DNA from: Acidobacteriota bacterium
GTDB taxonomy: Bacteria > Acidobacteriota > Thermoanaerobaculia > Thermoanaerobaculales > Sulfomarinibacteraceae
Direction of reading: 5' to 3'
NCBI GenBank assembly: GCA_024641545.1
Contig: JAHECW010000026.1
Span: 1-42,747, forward strand
Length of the DNA: 42,747 nt
How positions within the stretch are numbered: the stretch's first letter is position 1; the number at the start of each line of letters is the position of its first letter. Positions 32,981-42,747 of the stretch are shown piece after piece. The notes below the pieces were generated by a model. It worked only from the letters and a program-made list of their open reading frames with translations. It ran no database searches and was not told where the DNA came from. A program made the position numbers and the translations under genes.

Positions 32981-33571
32981 CTACGCCGGAACGATCTCGG
33001 GCCGGGTGATTTCGAATCCGACGGCGACGGCATCCTCGTTGATCTCGAGCGAGATCTCAAACCAACCCGCGTGATCCGCCAGATACTGTCGAACCACCCC
33101 TCTCGCTTTCTTTCGCGCGACCAGGGATTTGCGGCACATGTAGTCGAGCCCGTAGCGACTGGCGACTCGAGCCACCGTCAAGTTGCAGCGGGCCGGGCTC
33201 CGCCGCTCGCCGAATCGATAGCCGAACTCCATGAATGAGCCCGCGTTGTGCGCCCGGAAACGCAGCACGAGATTGCCCGGAGCCAGCACCCTGATCCGGT
33301 CGCCGACGGTTTCGACCAGCACGGCGCCGTCGGCGGCGACGATCCTGCTGCCGTCGACGACGTCGACCGCTGCTTCGGAAACCACCGCGATCGACGGGTC
33401 CGCAGGCGTGAAGACCATCTCCACGCCGTTTTCTTCGATGAGATTCCGATAGTTACCGTAGAGAATCACGACCACGACATCCGCCAGCGCCACCAGGGCG
33501 AAAAGCGAGAACACGACGGCCGGAAGCCACCGTGTCCGGCGCGGCTCGCTCGCGTTCGCCTCAGTGCTCAT
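32981..33571 (-). CDS. Single-pass membrane-anchored protein of unknown function
   Basis: The 196-residue protein has a short basic cytoplasmic start, one membrane helix (about 16-39, LPAVVFSLFALVALADVVVV) and a periplasmic domain rich in beta strands (SIAVVSEAAVDVVDGSRIVA; NLVLRFRAHNAGSFMEFGY). Two cysteines (in ARCNLTV and YMCRKS) may pair. No family is recognised. Its ATG lies inside the 3' end of the large GH13 gene (11-base overlap, ATGAGCACTGA), so the two are co-translated and may work together. Confidence 0.65.
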   Translation of the reverse strand: MSTEANASEPRRTRWLPAVVFSLFALVALADVVVVILYGNYRNLIEENGVEMVFTPADPSIAVVSEAAVDVVDGSRIVAADGAVLVETVGDRIRVLAPGNLVLRFRAHNAGSFMEFGYRFGERRSPARCNLTVARVASRYGLDYMCRKSLVARKKARGVVRQYLADHAGWFEISLEINEDAVAVGFEITRPEIVPA

Positions 33572-36500
33572 CGTCGGTCAACGCCGCCAGGAGATCGGCA
33601 ACCCGGTAACCGCTCGCTGCATCGGCCTCGAGCAACCGCGCCAGGGCGTCCTCGACCGATACGGCGGTATCGGCATCGCCCCGGCTGTCGAGAATTGCGG
33701 CAACTTCGAGCCATCCGATCAGTGTCGTCAGGGCCTCGGCCCGGTACCAGAGCTCCCCTCCCCACCTGTTGACGCCGAGGAAGGTCCGCCCCGGTTCGCG
33801 TGAGACGAGCTCGGACACCAGCGCCGACATCTCGATGCCGTCGCCGCCATCGACCGCCCACCAACCATCCACCTCGAGGAGGAGTCGGACAGCGGCAACG
33901 ACCTCGTCAGCCCCGGCCGGTCCGAGACCCAGCTCGCGGGCGTGCCGCTTGATGACGCGCCCGAGCAACCAGTCATCGAACCAGTCGATCACCCGGTTGT
34001 GCGGAGCCGGCCGCCGCTCGACGCCACCGATCCGGCGGGTCAGCAACCAGAACAGAACCGCCGCCCACCACCCGAGATCGGTCGACGTCCATACCTTCGA
34101 ATCACGATCATCGCTGAGACGCAGCACCCGCTCGAGATCACGGCGCAGCGCCAGCACGACCTCGTCGGGATCATCCTCGGTTCCCTCCCGCTCCGCCACC
34201 GCCGCCAGCACATCGACAAAGAGCGGGAGTACCTCACCCACCGCGGTGGATCGGTCTCCGGCACCCGCCTGATCGGAGCCGGCCGCGTGCAGGGCGAGGA
34301 TGTTTTCCGCCGACACCAACTCGGCAAAGGGCGCCAGCACATCTCGATGATCGAGCTCGGCCAGCGCGAGGTCGATACTGTCGACCCCCCTGCCGCCGAG
34401 TTCGGCCTCGAGTCGGCGCAGGCGACCCTCGTCGTCATCCACGAGTTCCCTGAGATCGAGGAAAACGTGACAGCGGTAGGCATCGAGTTCGACGTAGAGC
34501 CCGTGCTCGGCTAGGTGCCGGCACCCACGCAGATACTCGAGCCCGTCGACGACATCCCGGAAGGCGAGGAAGCGGTCCTCGGCATCGGTCATCCCGAGAC
34601 CCTGGGCAAGGCTGAAGCGCTCGAGTCGCTCGGAGCCGTCGGCGGCGCGCACCACCTTGGCCGTTGACAGCTGGAGCCGGCCCGCGGTCTCGGCAAAGGT
34701 GTTGTGGAAGATCACCAGGCTCTTTTCGCCGCCGACCTCGTTGGAGTAGGCGAAGACGTTCTCATCCACGTTTCCATGATCATCCACGAGGTCATAAAGC
34801 AGAAATCGGTCCACTTCCGCAAAACTCCCCCGGCGGTGGAGCAACGGGAAGAGCTGGCGCTCGTGGCGCTGGATCAGGTGCTCGTCGGGCTCCTCGGCCC
34901 AGCGCGGACGGCGGAACTCCATGCCGTACTTCTCGGTAAAACCCTCGATCTGTCCGTGACCGAACATGGGCAGACCCGGCAGGGTCGCCATCAGGGTGGC
35001 CGCCCCGAAGTACTTGCCGTCGGAGCCGAACTGATCGACGGCGGTCCGCTCATCGGGGTTGGACATGAAGTTGACGTATCGTTTGAGGATCTGCGGGTCA
35101 TACTCCAGGGTGCTCTTGATGAGCAAACGGTAGTCGGCGTTTCGCTCGTCGCGCAACATGTTCATGAAGGCCGAGTTGTAGACCCGGTGCATCCCCAGGG
35201 TGCGGACGAAATAGCCCTCGAGAAGCCAGAACGCCTCGGCGAGGAGCAGGGTGTCCGGCGCCTCGGCCGCGACCCGGTCCACGACCTCGCGCCAGAACTC
35301 CTCGGGCATGACCGCATCGAACTCGGCGCGGGTCATACCGTGCTCGGCCCGGGAGGGAATGTCGCCACCCGTACCCGGCGCGGGAAACCACAGACGGTGG
35401 TAGTGCTGCTTGGCCAGGGTCATGGCGGCATCGAAGCGGATGATGGGCGACCTTCGGGCGACGTGAAGGATGGTCTGGATCACCGCCTCGCGGACCTCGG
35501 CCCGACGGTAGTCGAGCTGGGCGGTGTCGTTCCACGGCATGGTGGTGCCGTCGTTGCCGTGGTAGATGAACCGCGTGTCGCCGGTCCAATGATCGACCCG
35601 TTTGAAGACCACCGCGGCATCGCTTCGGTCCCAGTAGCCGTCCTCGATGTAGATCCCGACCCGACCGTCGTCGCAGAGATCGGCGCCGGAGAACCTGTAG
35701 GCGGGGAACGGCGATTGATCGAGCCCGATGAACCAACTCGGGTGTTCGACGACCCACCGTGAGTCGATCCCCATGTGGTTGGGGACCATGTCGGTCGAGA
35801 GACGGATGCCCCGATCCCAGGCCCGGGCCTTGAAGCTGTCGTAGGCCGCTTCGCCGCCGAGGTCGTCGGCGATGGCGTAGTCGGCCAGGGAGTAGGCCGA
35901 TGCCACCGCTTCTTCGTCGCCCATCCACTTCTTGATCGTCTCCGACGCCCGGCTGCGCTGCCAGACCCCGATGAGCCAGAGCCCGGTGAAACCCCACCCG
36001 GCGAGCCGGTCGAGTTCGTCATCGGGGATCCGGTCGAGGGTCGTGATCTCCCGACCGTAGCGCTTGGACAACTGGTCGAGCCAGACGTGGACATTCTTGG
36101 CGAGCAGCACCAATCGCGGCATCCAGTCACGGTCGGCCGAGTAGCGTTCGGGAGCGTCGCCGAGATCGCCGAAGTCCGGGGGCGCCACCGGACCGGGACC
36201 GAAACCGAAAAACGGTTTCGACTCTTCGGCGACAAAATCGAGACTGGAAAGCACCCGCACGATCACATCGCCGAGATAACCCGCCCAGCTCGCGCGCATG
36301 AAGGCCAACTGACCCTCGAGAGTGGTCGGCGACGCCCAAACCGGCGCCAGGAGCAGATCGAGCAGGGTCTGCCCACCCTTTTCGAGGCCCGGCCGTCCGG
36401 CAAAGATCGTCTCGATCTTCTGAACGCACCGCGAATAGGCGGTCTCGCCGCGCAGGCGGTGGTCGTCGAAGAGCTCGCGGAAGGGCGCGAAGGCGGGGTT

Positions 36501-36995
36501 GGTGTTGGCGAGCCGGAGGAGGACCAGCTCCTCGAGCACGATCTCACGATGGGGTGTTCCGTCGGTGACCCCGTCGAGATAGACCTCGGCGGCGATCTCA
36601 CCGCGGTAGACCGCGAGCGGCGGAAACTCGTCGACAAAGGTCACCAGGATCTTGGAGACCTCGGCTTCTCCGAGGTCGTGTTCGAGTTCGGCGAGAGATT
36701 CGGCCATGAGAGTCGGACGCACCCGCTCACGGTATTGAGCGAAAATGACGTGGAGCATCTCGTCGATCAGCCCCATGGCGTTGATCTCGCTCGCCTTGAC
36801 CGCCTGCTCGGGGTGGGCCGCCAGATCGCGCTGACGGTTCATCTGATCGGCAAAGATCCTCGCCGCCCGGAAGTCGGCGAAAACCACGTTGCCCGTCGTG
36901 CCGAAGAGTCCCTGATCAAAGCCGTAGCGATCGCGTGCTCGGCGCGAGACGTGGAACTCACAGCGAGGCGTCTGCCGGAAAGTGTTGCGGCTCAT
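33561..36995 (-). CDS. Very large GH13 (alpha-amylase family) glycoside hydrolase
   Basis: The 1144-residue protein has a GH13 barrel in its middle third. Visible regions are DMVPNH (region I, about 406-411), nucleophile Asp522 in IIRFDAAMTLA, acid/base Glu587 in LLLAEAFW and the transition-state Asp648 in NFMSNPDERTAVDQFG. An aromatic GFTGLWLIGVWQRS opens the barrel. The catalytic triad is complete, so it should be active on alpha-glucans or maltooligosaccharides, hydrolysing or transferring. Residues 1-310 (a helical N-terminal extension) and about 760-1144 (after the barrel) match no domain I recognise. No signal peptide is seen, so it is probably cytoplasmic and may act in glycogen or maltodextrin turnover. 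The start lacks a good ribosome site. Confidence 0.85.
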   Translation of the reverse strand: MSRNTFRQTPRCEFHVSRRARDRYGFDQGLFGTTGNVVFADFRAARIFADQMNRQRDLAAHPEQAVKASEINAMGLIDEMLHVIFAQYRERVRPTLMAESLAELEHDLGEAEVSKILVTFVDEFPPLAVYRGEIAAEVYLDGVTDGTPHREIVLEELVLLRLANTNPAFAPFRELFDDHRLRGETAYSRCVQKIETIFAGRPGLEKGGQTLLDLLLAPVWASPTTLEGQLAFMRASWAGYLGDVIVRVLSSLDFVAEESKPFFGFGPGPVAPPDFGDLGDAPERYSADRDWMPRLVLLAKNVHVWLDQLSKRYGREITTLDRIPDDELDRLAGWGFTGLWLIGVWQRSRASETIKKWMGDEEAVASAYSLADYAIADDLGGEAAYDSFKARAWDRGIRLSTDMVPNHMGIDSRWVVEHPSWFIGLDQSPFPAYRFSGADLCDDGRVGIYIEDGYWDRSDAAVVFKRVDHWTGDTRFIYHGNDGTTMPWNDTAQLDYRRAEVREAVIQTILHVARRSPIIRFDAAMTLAKQHYHRLWFPAPGTGGDIPSRAEHGMTRAEFDAVMPEEFWREVVDRVAAEAPDTLLLAEAFWLLEGYFVRTLGMHRVYNSAFMNMLRDERNADYRLLIKSTLEYDPQILKRYVNFMSNPDERTAVDQFGSDGKYFGAATLMATLPGLPMFGHGQIEGFTEKYGMEFRRPRWAEEPDEHLIQRHERQLFPLLHRRGSFAEVDRFLLYDLVDDHGNVDENVFAYSNEVGGEKSLVIFHNTFAETAGRLQLSTAKVVRAADGSERLERFSLAQGLGMTDAEDRFLAFRDVVDGLEYLRGCRHLAEHGLYVELDAYRCHVFLDLRELVDDDEGRLRRLEAELGGRGVDSIDLALAELDHRDVLAPFAELVSAENILALHAAGSDQAGAGDRSTAVGEVLPLFVDVLAAVAEREGTEDDPDEVVLALRRDLERVLRLSDDRDSKVWTSTDLGWWAAVLFWLLTRRIGGVERRPAPHNRVIDWFDDWLLGRVIKRHARELGLGPAGADEVVAAVRLLLEVDGWWAVDGGDGIEMSALVSELVSREPGRTFLGVNRWGGELWYRAEALTTLIGWLEVAAILDSRGDADTAVSVEDALARLLEADAASGYRVADLLAALTDDEH

Positions 36996-38250: not shown

Positions 38251-38279
38251 TTGACGATTTGAGCAAGAACGGTGATCAT
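38251..38279 (+). promoter_or_regulatory. Candidate sigma70-type promoter for the mtrCAB-like cluster
   Basis: TTGACG (38251-38256) and GATCAT (38274-38279) are spaced 17 bases apart, with five and four of six consensus matches. They lie about 65 bases before the decahaem cytochrome start, in a locally AT-rich stretch. No c-di-GMP riboswitch or FNR site was recognised in the gap. Confidence 0.35.
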
Positions 38280-38343: not shown

Positions 38344-40440
38344 ATGCACATGATGAAACGCGGCATCACACTTCTGGTCGTATTGGGACTCGCGTCTTTG
38401 GCGACCGCAGGGTTGACAGGACACCAGCTCGGGACGCCCGCCGGCGCCAACACTCAGTCGTCCACCGACATCGAGATGGTCTCGGCGCACGGCTACACCA
38501 AGAACCAGGTGGAGTACTACCTCACCGATGACGAAAAAACCTACGCCCGACCGGGTCTCACGGTGGAAATCGTCAACGCCGAGATCCCCGCCGATCGCCG
38601 TCCGGTAGTCGAGGTCACCTTTGTCGACGACATGGGTCTCCCGCTCGACCGAGAGGGCCGCCTGACGCCCGGCACGATCAGCATGAGCTTTGTCATTGCC
38701 TGGTACGACGGTGGGCTCAGCCAGTACACCGCCTACACGACCCGGCCGCAGACCAGCCCGATCACCGGCGAAACCGCGGTGCAGGCGTCGACGGACTCCG
38801 GCGGATCCTGGGACGATGTCGAAATCGGACGCTCCTTCTACACCTTCGGCACCCAGCTGCCCGCGGGCTATGACATGTCCAAGACGCACACCGTTTATGT
38901 CTATGCCACCCGCAACACCGCCGACATTCTCGACAAGAATTACTACTCCGACCCGACTCATGATTTTCGGCCGGACGGCGGCGCCATCACCGACCGCTGG
39001 GGGTTGATTCTCACCGAGACCTGCAACGCCTGCCACGATCCGCTGGCGCTCCACGGCGGCAGCCGCCGTGCCGTTCAGGGTTGCGCCATGTGCCACAACC
39101 CGCAATCGTGGGATCCCGACACCGGGAACACGGTCGACCTCAAGGTCATGATCCACAAGATCCACTTCGGCGCCTCGCTGCCGAGCGTGCAGGCCGGGAC
39201 CCCCTATCAGATCATCGGCTACCGCCAGTCGGTCCACGACTACTCCGACGTGGTCTTCCCGCAGGATGTCCGCAACTGCTGGAACTGCCACTCGCCCGAC
39301 GCCGAACAGGGCTCGAACTGGTTCACCAACCCAACCCGCGCGGTCTGTGCTTCATGCCACGACGACATCAACTGGGAGACCGGCGAGAACCACCCCGGCG
39401 GCGCGGCGACCAGCGACAACTTCTGCGCCAACTGCCACCAGCCCGAGGGATCGCGGGAATTCGACGCCTCAGTCAAGGGCGCCCACACCATTCCCAACAA
39501 ATCGACCCAGCTTCAGGGCATCAACATGGAGATCGTCGATGTGACCGGCGCCGAGCCGGGCGGGATGCCGACGGTCTCGTTCACGCTCACCAATGACGAC
39601 GGCTCGGTGGTCGAGGACATCGCCGGCCTCCGCACCCTGACCCTCCGTGCCGCCGGTCCCATCGGCGAGACCATCGACCACACCGTGGACATCTCCGAAG
39701 ACGCCCGCGATGCGACGCTTTCCGACGGCGTGTTCACCGACACCTTCTCGGCGCCCATCCCGGGCGACGCCACCGGCAGCTGGGGTTTCTCCGCCGACGT
39801 CCGCCGGGACACCACGATCGACGACGGCACGGCGGCGGGAACCGGGGTCACCGAAGGCGCGTTCAACCCGATCTTCTATGCGGCCGTGACCGACGACGAA
39901 CCGATGCCGAGACGTGAAGTCGTCTCCATCGACAAGTGCAACGTCTGCCACGACACGCTCTCGCTCCACGGCGGCCAGCGATTCAACACCACCGAGTGCG
40001 TGATGTGTCACCGTCCCAACAACGACGACTCCGGCCGCCGGCCCGAGGGCGAGAATCCGCCCGAGTCGGTGGACATGCGTTGGATGATCCACCGCATCCA
40101 CACCGGTGAGGGCCTGGTCAACGACTTCACCGTCTACGGCTACGGCGGGACGGCGCACAACTACAACGAGGTCGTGTATCCCGGTGATCTGCGGAACTGC
40201 GTCAGCTGTCACGAATCCGGAACCTACTCGGTGCCGCTGCCCGCGGGGACCCAGTCGGTCCAGACGCTGCGGGATTGGTACGCCCCGATGCTTCCGGCCG
40301 CCGCCTCGTGCCTCGCGTGCCACAGCTCGATCGACGCCGCCGCACACGCGTGGACCAACACCGCCCCATTCGGCGAATCCTGCGCTTCGTGCCACGGCGA
40401 CAACCGGGCCTTCTCGGTGGATCAGGTCCACGCGAGGTAG
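38344..40440 (+). CDS. OmcA/MtrC-family decahaem c-type cytochrome
   Basis: The 698-residue exported protein has ten CXXCH haem sites in two groups of five: residues 227, 247, 312, 335, 361 and 532, 552, 619, 656, 680 (first Cys). Before each group is a beta-rich domain (VEIVNAEIPADRRPVVEVTF; IVDVTGAEPGGMPTVSFTL). This beta, five-haem, beta, five-haem order is the four-domain plan of MtrC and OmcA, the cell-surface terminal reductases of extracellular electron transfer. Extra His residues (KVMIHKIHFG; WMIHRIHTG) are likely distal haem ligands. The signal peptide (KRGITLLVVLGLASLATA) has no lipobox Cys, unlike Shewanella MtrC. ATG 38344 has GGAGG 8 bases upstream. The MtrA-like gene follows after 80 bases. 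Confidence 0.95.
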   Translation: MHMMKRGITLLVVLGLASLATAGLTGHQLGTPAGANTQSSTDIEMVSAHGYTKNQVEYYLTDDEKTYARPGLTVEIVNAEIPADRRPVVEVTFVDDMGLPLDREGRLTPGTISMSFVIAWYDGGLSQYTAYTTRPQTSPITGETAVQASTDSGGSWDDVEIGRSFYTFGTQLPAGYDMSKTHTVYVYATRNTADILDKNYYSDPTHDFRPDGGAITDRWGLILTETCNACHDPLALHGGSRRAVQGCAMCHNPQSWDPDTGNTVDLKVMIHKIHFGASLPSVQAGTPYQIIGYRQSVHDYSDVVFPQDVRNCWNCHSPDAEQGSNWFTNPTRAVCASCHDDINWETGENHPGGAATSDNFCANCHQPEGSREFDASVKGAHTIPNKSTQLQGINMEIVDVTGAEPGGMPTVSFTLTNDDGSVVEDIAGLRTLTLRAAGPIGETIDHTVDISEDARDATLSDGVFTDTFSAPIPGDATGSWGFSADVRRDTTIDDGTAAGTGVTEGAFNPIFYAAVTDDEPMPRREVVSIDKCNVCHDTLSLHGGQRFNTTECVMCHRPNNDDSGRRPEGENPPESVDMRWMIHRIHTGEGLVNDFTVYGYGGTAHNYNEVVYPGDLRNCVSCHESGTYSVPLPAGTQSVQTLRDWYAPMLPAAASCLACHSSIDAAAHAWTNTAPFGESCASCHGDNRAFSVDQVHAR

Positions 40441-40463
40441 CGTGAGATGACTATTACCGCAAT

Positions 40464-40490
40464 CCTCCGATCCGCCCAGCGGGTCGGAGG
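40464..40490 (+). other. Intercistronic hairpin between the two decahaem cytochrome genes
   Basis: CCTCCGATCC (40464-40473) pairs with GGGTCGGAGG (40481-40490), 10 pairs including one G-T, loop 7 bases. There is no T tract, so it is more likely an mRNA stabilising or processing element, or a partial attenuator, than a full terminator. Confidence 0.45.
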
Positions 40491-40520
40491 CGACACCGCA
40501 GAGCGAAAGGTGGGACGGGC

Positions 40521-41384
40521 ATGAAACAGTCCATCCGAGTGTTGGGCCTCGTCGGCTTGTTCATCCTCGCCGGCGTCGCCACCCACGCCCAGTCCAACGA
40601 CGACGGGTCGGAAGACTGCGCCATGTGCCACGAAGAAGTCGCGGCAGCCTTCCACGGGACCATTCACGGCATCGCGAAACGGGGCGCGCCGTCCTGCGTC
40701 GCATGCCACGGAAACGGCGCGGAACATATGGAAGCGGGTGGCGATCCCGAACTGATCTCCAAACCTACCGGAACGGCAGGCGTCAAGCTCTGCCTCGGGT
40801 GCCACGGCCAGACCCAGGCGATGTTCTCGGCGCGCTCGGCGCACGCGGACTTGGGCATCGACTGCAACGCCTGTCACAGCATCCACAATCCCGACCACGG
40901 CCGGCGAGCCCTCCTGAAGGACGACGCCAAGACGCTCTGCGCAGGCTGCCACGCGAGCCAGGCCAACTCCTTCCGCAGGCCCTACGGTCACCGCCTCGAT
41001 CTCGGCGGTCTCGACTGCGCCTCGTGCCACGATCCGCACGCGGGCGCCGGCGACCACAGCCTCAGGATCGACCGCGCCGGCGACGGCCCCTGCGTCACCT
41101 GCCATGCCGAAAAGCGGGGACCGTTCGCGTTCTCGCACGTCTCGGGGGTGACCGGGGACTGCATGACCTGCCACCAGCCGCACGGGTCGACGAATCCGAT
41201 GGCGCTGACCCGATCCAGGGTCGAACAGCTCTGCCTCGAGTGCCACAGCCGGATCCTTCCACCCGACACCCTGGGCTCGCAGACGCCTTCGTCGCACGAC
41301 CTCGTGGATCCGCGCTACCGAAACTGCACCGTCTGCCACGTCGCCATCCACGGTTCGAACACCTCACCCGCGTTGTTGAAGTAG
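40521..41384 (+). CDS. MtrA/DmsE-family decahaem c-type cytochrome
   Basis: The 287-residue protein has a Sec signal peptide (LGLVGLFILAGVATHAQS) and ten CXXCH motifs, the first at 33 (CAMCH) and the last at 269 (CTVCH). The spacing, with repeated C-X-X-C-H...H..H pairs such as CNACHSIHNPDHG and CASCHDPHAGAGDH, is that of MtrA/DmsE/PioA. In Shewanella, MtrA lies inside the MtrB barrel and wires the periplasm to MtrC. MtrA there is a little longer (about 330 residues). It stands between the MtrC-like gene and the MtrB-like gene, 10 bases before the latter. The ATG at 40521 is preceded by GGTGGGACGGGC. Confidence 0.95.
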   Translation: MKQSIRVLGLVGLFILAGVATHAQSNDDGSEDCAMCHEEVAAAFHGTIHGIAKRGAPSCVACHGNGAEHMEAGGDPELISKPTGTAGVKLCLGCHGQTQAMFSARSAHADLGIDCNACHSIHNPDHGRRALLKDDAKTLCAGCHASQANSFRRPYGHRLDLGGLDCASCHDPHAGAGDHSLRIDRAGDGPCVTCHAEKRGPFAFSHVSGVTGDCMTCHQPHGSTNPMALTRSRVEQLCLECHSRILPPDTLGSQTPSSHDLVDPRYRNCTVCHVAIHGSNTSPALLK

Positions 41385-41394
41385 GAGGAGGCTG

Positions 41395-42747
41395 ATGAAC
41401 AAACGCACCATCACGTTCGTCGCCGTCACCATCATCGCGCTGGTGGGCCTTGGAACCCCGCGGGCGGAAGCGCAGTCCACCCACTTTGATGTCGAACTCG
41501 GCTATCAGTGGGTCGATGTCGATGGAAACGAGGACCTCTACCGCACTCAGATCAACCAGAGCAGCGGTTTCGTGCTCAAGGACTTTTCCCTGAGCCACAT
41601 CGATTCATCGGACGGCGCCAAGTTTGCCGACAACTTCAGAATCGACGCCGCCGGGTTCGGCGGCAACCCCGCCGGCCGTTTCCGGCTCTGGGCGGGTCTC
41701 GGGAAGATCTACCGCTTCCGGCTCTTCTACAGCGAGTTCGAGAACTTCAGCGCGCTGCCGGCCTACGCCAACCCCGAGATCGAAAACGGTGTGACGCCCG
41801 GACAGCACACCTGGAATCGCGATCGCCAGACCATCGACATCGAACTCGAGCTTCTTCCCAACCGGACGGTGACACCGCTCATCGGCTACCGGCGAAACGT
41901 CATCGAGGGACCGCGGACCACCACCTACCGCGTCGGTCAGAACGAGTACCGCCTGTCTTCCGATCTCAAAGAGACCGAGCAGGAACTCTACGCCGGAATC
42001 ACCTTCAAAGCGGGAGACTTCTTCGGCACCCTGATCCAGGGGTGGCGTGAGTACGAGGCCAAAGACGGTCTCTCCCTCGCTCCCGGCGAACGCGACGGCA
42101 ACATCGGTGTGCCGGTTCTCGGGGTCGGTCAGTACGTCGACGAGTTTTCCCGCTCCATGACCTCGACGGCCGAGACCCCGGTGACCACCGCCAATCTCCA
42201 GGGCAAGATCGGCGACGATGTCGATGTTGCCCTGAGCTACATTCGAGCCGATCTCGAAGGCGAGACCTCGTCGTCGGAACTGCTCTCGGGTTCGTTGGTC
42301 TCCTACCGGATCAGCCGGTTCTTCGGCGGTCTCGACCAGACCATCGCGAGCCGGACCGACAATCCCTATTGGCGCGCCGAGGGGAGATTCAAAATCCATC
42401 TCGGTGAGTCGGTCCGCCTCGATCTGGGACTCGAGGAAAATCACCGTTCGCTCCAGGGCTGGTCGCTGATCTCCAGCCTCTACCTCGACACCCTCAATTT
42501 CGGCGGTCACGACCCGCAGGACATCCAGACCCTGGTCGATGCTCACAACGGCTACCAACGCGACGATCAGATCGTCACCGGCCGGCTCAACGTCGACAAC
42601 CTGGGACCCCTGGTCCTGTGGGCCGAAGCCGGGTACAAAAAGACCGATCTGAGTCTGTCGGAAGATGTCTCCGAGATCGTGACGCCCGGTGGTCAGGAGG
42701 GCGACTACCACCGCACCACCAAACTCCTCGGCGCCGGTGCGGCATTG
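41395..42747 (+). CDS. MtrB/PioB-like outer-membrane barrel of the electron conduit, N-terminal part
   Basis: The open frame runs without a stop from ATG 41395 to the window edge, giving 451 residues; family members are near 700. The ribosome site GGAGGAGG is strong. A signal peptide (TFVAVTIIALVGLG to AEAQ) is followed by alternating polar-aromatic strands typical of a beta-barrel: FDVELGYQWVDVDGN, GRFRLWAGLGKIYRFRLFYS, EQELYAGITFKAGDFFGTLI, VRLDLGLEENHRSL. Position just after the MtrA-like gene and overall pattern identify it as the MtrB/PioB-type porin that sheathes MtrA. No cysteine occurs in the visible part, so the N-terminal CXXC of Shewanella MtrB is missing. The assignment rests on context plus barrel features rather than a signature motif. 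Confidence 0.85.
   Translation, partial: MNKRTITFVAVTIIALVGLGTPRAEAQSTHFDVELGYQWVDVDGNEDLYRTQINQSSGFVLKDFSLSHIDSSDGAKFADNFRIDAAGFGGNPAGRFRLWAGLGKIYRFRLFYSEFENFSALPAYANPEIENGVTPGQHTWNRDRQTIDIELELLPNRTVTPLIGYRRNVIEGPRTTTYRVGQNEYRLSSDLKETEQELYAGITFKAGDFFGTLIQGWREYEAKDGLSLAPGERDGNIGVPVLGVGQYVDEFSRSMTSTAETPVTTANLQGKIGDDVDVALSYIRADLEGETSSSELLSGSLVSYRISRFFGGLDQTIASRTDNPYWRAEGRFKIHLGESVRLDLGLEENHRSLQGWSLISSLYLDTLNFGGHDPQDIQTLVDAHNGYQRDDQIVTGRLNVDNLGPLVLWAEAGYKKTDLSLSEDVSEIVTPGGQEGDYHRTTKLLGAGAAL

Follow-up and report, generated by a model that had tools for sequence, protein, structure and literature searches.

The window analysed here is a stretch of 42,747 nucleotides that comprises the whole contig JAHECW010000026.1 (C42) of assembly GCA_024641545.1, a 99.4%-complete genome of 5.38 Mb in 310 contigs affiliated with the Sulfomarinibacteraceae. 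At its 3' end, three adjacent plus-strand genes very probably encode an MtrCAB-type porin-cytochrome conduit for extracellular electron transfer (EET), probably working in the outward direction. The host is an uncultured thermoanaerobaculian acidobacterium. Among named relatives, the one closest to the window MtrC (84% identity) belongs to the Thermoanaerobaculales metagenome-assembled genome (MAG) MAG_Ve_Sed_50 (JARFRM010000007.1), and a species of the same genus is represented by genome G001 (contig C277). The features of the locus are as follows:

38251..38279, plus strand: single sigma-70-like promoter match upstream of mtrC, TTGACG-17-GATCAT; a match to the consensus only, with 0.4 expected by chance
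38344..40440, plus strand: mtrC-like gene, decahaem OmcA/MtrC-family cytochrome of 698 aa, 75 kDa, pI 4.8
40521..41384, plus strand: mtrA-like gene, decahaem MtrA/DmsE-family cytochrome of 287 aa with a signal-like N-terminal segment
41395..42747, plus strand: mtrB-like gene for an outer-membrane barrel, broken off at the contig end after 451 of about 649 codons

A first-pass annotation made from the DNA letters had described three adjacent plus-strand genes in the order C-A-B, and the open reading frames (ORFs) confirmed their coordinates, strand, and order. A scripted count of CXXCH motifs (10 in mtrC, 10 in mtrA, and 0 in the barrel gene) agreed with the ten motifs it gave for each cytochrome, and the acidobacterial-type organism it had proposed was borne out by the closest named MtrC. 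The mtrC-like ORF starts with ATG at 38344, immediately preceded by a purine-rich ribosome-binding site (GGGAGG), and stops at 40440; with an alternative in-frame start (GTG, 38272), the product would be 24 aa longer. The spacing is 80 nt between mtrC and mtrA and 10 nt between mtrA and the barrel gene. Coding was supported by the G+C content at the three codon positions (about 0.6/0.5/0.85 in the three genes). The trio is conserved across dozens of genomes with 30-86% identity, so the ORFs are not chance ones.

The barrel ORF is still open at position 42747, as had been noticed before. Since the window is a complete contig, the gene is truncated by the assembly itself and not by the window edge alone. 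A complete barrel gene was found in a sister genome, a Thermoanaerobaculales MAG (L047:12817-14763); its product of 649 aa is 86% identical to the window copy and does not continue into an unrelated protein. When the window's own genome was searched with the sister protein for the missing C-terminal third, only the known fragment was found. The earlier description of the conduit as complete-looking therefore holds for the sister genome but not for the window.

The mtrC product matched the OmcA/MtrC family model of NCBIfam (TIGR03507) with 455 bits at a cut-off of 209.3, and the Pfam MtrC/MtrF domain II/IV was matched twice. Hmmsearch of the Protein Data Bank (PDB) with a profile of 17 homologues yielded MtrF (2.5e-59) as well as OmcA, UndA, and MtrC. 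The AlphaFold model (pLDDT 87) gave the same picture: the best 16 PDB matches were all OmcA, UndA, MtrC, or MtrF, followed by a sharp fall to unrelated chains. Two alignments, of 17 and of 28 homologues, showed all CXXCH motifs to be invariant together with exactly ten further histidines, which could provide a distal ligand for each haem.

The mtrA product reached 201.8 bits with TIGR03508 (cut-off 192.2). With a profile of 17 homologues, the decahaem subunit of the Mtr complex (6r2q chain A) was retrieved at an E-value of 1e-46, the match covering almost the entire length; this subunit is the best solved relative of the protein, although its database molecule name, cystathionine beta-synthase, is evidently a mislabel. 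The ten motif histidines and exactly ten other histidines were invariant in the alignment of 17 homologues. From these patterns we infer that, in MtrC as in MtrA, each of the ten haems has bis-histidine ligation. Matches of MtrA to the nitrite-reductase families NrfB and NrfH were weak and far under the cut-offs, compared to those with TIGR03508 and 6r2q_A, and placement of the cytochromes in a nitrite or sulfur decahaem family was rejected.

NCBIfam names the family of the MtrA homologue DmsE, which is consistent with a DmsEF-type module serving an extracellular terminal reductase, such as dimethyl sulfoxide (DMSO) reductase, rather than minerals. However, TIGR03508 takes in MtrA and DmsE alike, and a conserved extra gene beside the trio was seen neither in the window nor in the sister genome or 18 further related loci, with the flanking genes partly annotated. 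In addition, MtrC is not known to belong to Dms operons. A DmsEF-type role is consequently considered very unlikely.

The barrel was less easily placed. Neither PF11854 nor TIGR03509 matched the window fragment (at E 10) or the complete sister protein (at E 1), and a sequence search of PDB with the barrel profile gave chance matches only. Because the curated MtrB/PioB models gave no match, other tests were needed for the family placement. The barrel profile was aligned by hhalign with a set of 15 acidobacterial proteins truly matching PF11854, and the alignment had a probability of 98.6% (E 7e-16) over 565 co-linear columns. The control, an unrelated FadL-type barrel represented by an alignment of only 3 sequences, yielded 16%. 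The AlphaFold model of the sister barrel, computed with 28 homologues, had a mean pLDDT of 85 and 26 strands. Foldseek placed MtrB (6r2q_B) first for this model (1.2e-14, TM 0.64), followed by a siderophore receptor (1.1e-10); VIA-align also placed 6r2q_B first, with Z 23.7 over 557 residues at 4.2 Å, the next match having Z 17.0. One protein, L075, bridges the two groups, scoring 34 bits with PF11854 and 125 bits with the present barrel profile. Judging from profile alignment and the predicted fold, we conclude that the barrel is a divergent homologue of MtrB/PioB, despite failing the curated models. The family calls of the first-pass annotation thus stood for all three proteins; the profile searches it had proposed succeeded with both cytochromes but not with the barrel, which is invisible to the standard MtrB/PioB models. 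Assignment of the barrel to the GSU2204 family was also tried and rejected, as the matches were short and partial and the sister protein scored 16.6 bits at a cut-off of 350.

The barrel could instead be an unrelated porin, with the two cytochromes acting apart from it. The missing PF11854 and TIGR03509 matches agree with this, as does the score of the full-length orthologue with the generic OMP_b-brl model. It is countered by the profile-profile match to MtrB/PioB, which spans the full length and which the control barrel did not give, by the 26 strands with MtrB as the clear top structural match, and by tight gene spacing (mostly 11-19 nt) with the order preserved throughout the clade. Of all the explanations considered, this one appears the least probable.

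The search with MtrC collected 79 named loci, of which 52 had the C-A-barrel order, nearly all in Acidobacteriota; several others end at a contig edge. In the MtrC tree, the window sequence fell into a Thermoanaerobaculia-type clade of 28 rows with a support of 100, apart from the rows of Terriglobia and Bryobacterales. In the sister genome, the operon ends at the barrel and the next gene lies on the opposite strand. The inner-membrane partners that had been expected downstream do not directly follow the barrel there, and no CymA-like gene adjoins it in the sister genome or in the 18 related loci, where by inspection no conserved gene after the barrel was evident. In two relatives, NapC/NirT-type multihaem proteins are encoded at some distance from the barrel: about 6.5 kb past it in L057, and about 8 kb away in L054. 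In several loci of Terriglobia and Bryobacterales, the barrel is followed by a tetrahaem gene, which does not occur in the clade of the window. The convergent neighbour of the sister barrel gene (L047:9055-12126) encodes a protein of 1024 aa that has nine CXXCH motifs and matches MtrC/MtrF-like domains. In some relatives (L051:2811-7407, also L100 and L099), a barrel of 634 aa, a decahaem MtrA of 292 aa, and a 7-haem protein of 592 aa are encoded immediately upstream of the C-A-barrel operon; this group has two conduits in tandem. Two records titled Acidimicrobiia (L144) and Omnitrophota (L166) carry MtrC of the acidobacterial type, and L144 has the entire C-A-barrel set plus the tetrahaem gene. 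Wrong titles or contamination of the MAGs are a likelier explanation here than transfer.

Taken as an MtrCAB-type conduit, the three genes would form one operon. Electrons would pass from the quinone pool to a NapC/NirT-type multihaem quinol dehydrogenase of the inner membrane, encoded elsewhere in the genome, and from there to the conduit. MtrA would be exported, loaded with ten bis-histidine haems, and seated inside the 26-strand barrel, conducting the electrons across the outer membrane. On the outer face, the decahaem MtrC would pass them to extracellular acceptors such as Fe(III) or Mn(IV) minerals, humics, or other cells. Several observations weigh against this explanation. In addition to the silence of the curated barrel models, the full-length barrel model is that of the 86%-identical sister copy, the window barrel itself being without its last third. 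No quinol dehydrogenase or regulator is linked to the trio. MtrC lacks a lipid anchor that would hold it at the cell surface. Finally, some acidobacterial MtrC homologues have no adjacent mtrAB, as was reported for GAL08 (PMC8787282), and MtrC alone is therefore not diagnostic.

The same conduit may run in reverse, with electrons taken up from Fe(II), a cathode, or another cell as in PioAB and MtoAB. The barrel is related to the MtrB/PioB family, nothing in the sequence fixes the direction of flow, and MtrAB cores are able to run both ways (PMC8805035). However, the linked outer cytochrome is of the OmcA/MtrC type, usual in reductive systems, and the type species of the class, Thermoanaerobaculum aquaticum, is reported to be an iron reducer in work cited in PMC8787282. 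On account of that report, outward flow is more likely, and uptake is regarded as unlikely.

The multihaem complement of the window's own genome agrees with such a chain, and cytochrome c assembly proteins are present. Several NapC/NirT-type proteins are encoded, for example, a 5-haem protein of 519 aa on contig C22 (L201:4677-6233) and a 4-haem protein of 257 aa on contig C39; similar proteins of 480-492 aa share a contig with mtrCAB in L054 and L057. They are candidate quinol-oxidising partners, in analogy to CymA and ImcH. Divergent from the 5-haem gene on C22 is a minus-strand gene (L201:1370-4531) for a protein of 1054 aa that contains 23 CXXCH motifs and at its C-terminus weakly resembles cytochrome b561; the pair is a possible inner-membrane complex for quinol-linked electron transfer. 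On contig C11 (locus L202:2482-5551, minus strand) lies a second decahaem MtrA homologue (211 bits with TIGR03508), accompanied by another barrel, apparently in two pieces, and by a 7-haem protein upstream, with no MtrC beside it. This set is possibly a second conduit.

The locus resembles MtrCAB of Shewanella (PDB 6R2Q) in the C-A-B order, the decahaem MtrC and MtrA, and the 26-strand barrel, and MtrA and barrels of the window type align with chains A and B of 6r2q nearly over the full length. Identity in MtrC and the barrel is only about 10-20%, MtrA is shorter (287 vs. 333 aa), and the trio has neither an omcA/mtrDEF cluster beside it nor an adjacent quinol dehydrogenase. Unlike Shewanella MtrC, the window MtrC has no LXXC lipid anchor and no CX8C switch in domain III. 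All 20 of its cysteines fall within CXXCH motifs, and it therefore lacks both a lipobox cysteine and a CX8C pair; the N-terminus is signal-like, with no cysteine ahead of the first haem motif. Among homologues, a lipobox-like motif ahead of the first haem was present in 3 of 84, an approximate count, as the start codons were assigned mechanically, and CX8C in domain III occurred in none of 83. In Shewanella, the CX8C pair lowers flavin reduction by MtrC in oxygen (PMC9973256). For the acidobacterial MtrC, attachment through the MtrAB complex alone is one possibility, and a hydrophobic N-terminal segment that stays uncleaved is another. A secretin search of the genome found matching proteins below the GspD cut-off, so type II secretion of MtrC is only a possibility.

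Of the same phylum and gene order is the Group 5 MtrCAB of Acidobacteriia/Bryobacterales, which appears to share the barrel family at a distance and for which a tetrahaem gene after the barrel was reported (Baker et al., 2022; PMC8805035). Bryobacterales-type loci in our set, which may or may not be records of that study, scored about 100-250 bits on the present barrel profile; their MtrC joins the window MtrC in one tree, with the clade of the window separate. Classical PF11854 conduits of other Acidobacteriota likewise have a barrel beside a decahaem MtrA (e.g., L209), and the barrels are remotely homologous to the present one but mostly 700-980 aa long and detected by PF11854. With Geobacter GSU2203/GSU2204 the likeness is weaker. 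MtrA scored 156 bits on the GSU2203 family, far under the curated cut-off of 325, and related barrels weakly matched part of the GSU2204 model (cut-off 350 bits); the window barrel has no CXXCH.

Among 297 sampled genomes of Acidobacteriota, PF11854 was found in 72, the present barrel family in 83, and both in 19. Consequently, 64 genomes had the present family without PF11854, some of the matches being weak; with a threshold of at least 110 bits on the barrel profile, 45 genomes remained, 35 of them without PF11854. Soils and sediments are rich in Acidobacteriota, whose capacity for mineral respiration is judged in genome surveys partly by MtrB search. Given these 64 genomes, such surveys would miss many conduits.

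These data lead us to a tentative proposal, to which we give slightly less than even weight. The trio would represent a separate, mostly vertically kept MtrCAB lineage of Thermoanaerobaculia and other Acidobacteriota, the barrel of which evades the MtrB models so that EET is undercounted, and the MtrC of which stays on the cell surface with no lipid anchor and functions in the absence of the oxygen-sensing disulfide. If so, MtrC attachment differs from that in Shewanella, and peroxide formation is avoided in another way. The consistent absence of the anchor and of CX8C from acidobacterial MtrC raises the questions of what keeps the protein on the outer face and by what means damage from oxygen is prevented. 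The first-pass annotation rightly called such conduits much less studied in Acidobacteriota, yet MtrCAB has already been published for Bryobacterales of this phylum (PMC8805035). A role of acidobacterial decahaem cytochromes in Fe reduction was put forward in 2013 (PMC3669403), and mtr homologues have been called common in Acidobacteria (PMC8787282). Our literature search, which left subscription papers mostly outside, found no description of the Thermoanaerobaculia trio or of the missing anchor and switch.

Upstream of the conduit, on the minus strand (33561-36995), the window encodes an alpha-amylase-like protein of 1144 aa that weakly matches malto-oligosyltrehalose synthase and MalA. Genome G002 has a counterpart of like size and start at the equivalent position next to the conduit (L064:3097-6510), and the gene therefore marks shared synteny.

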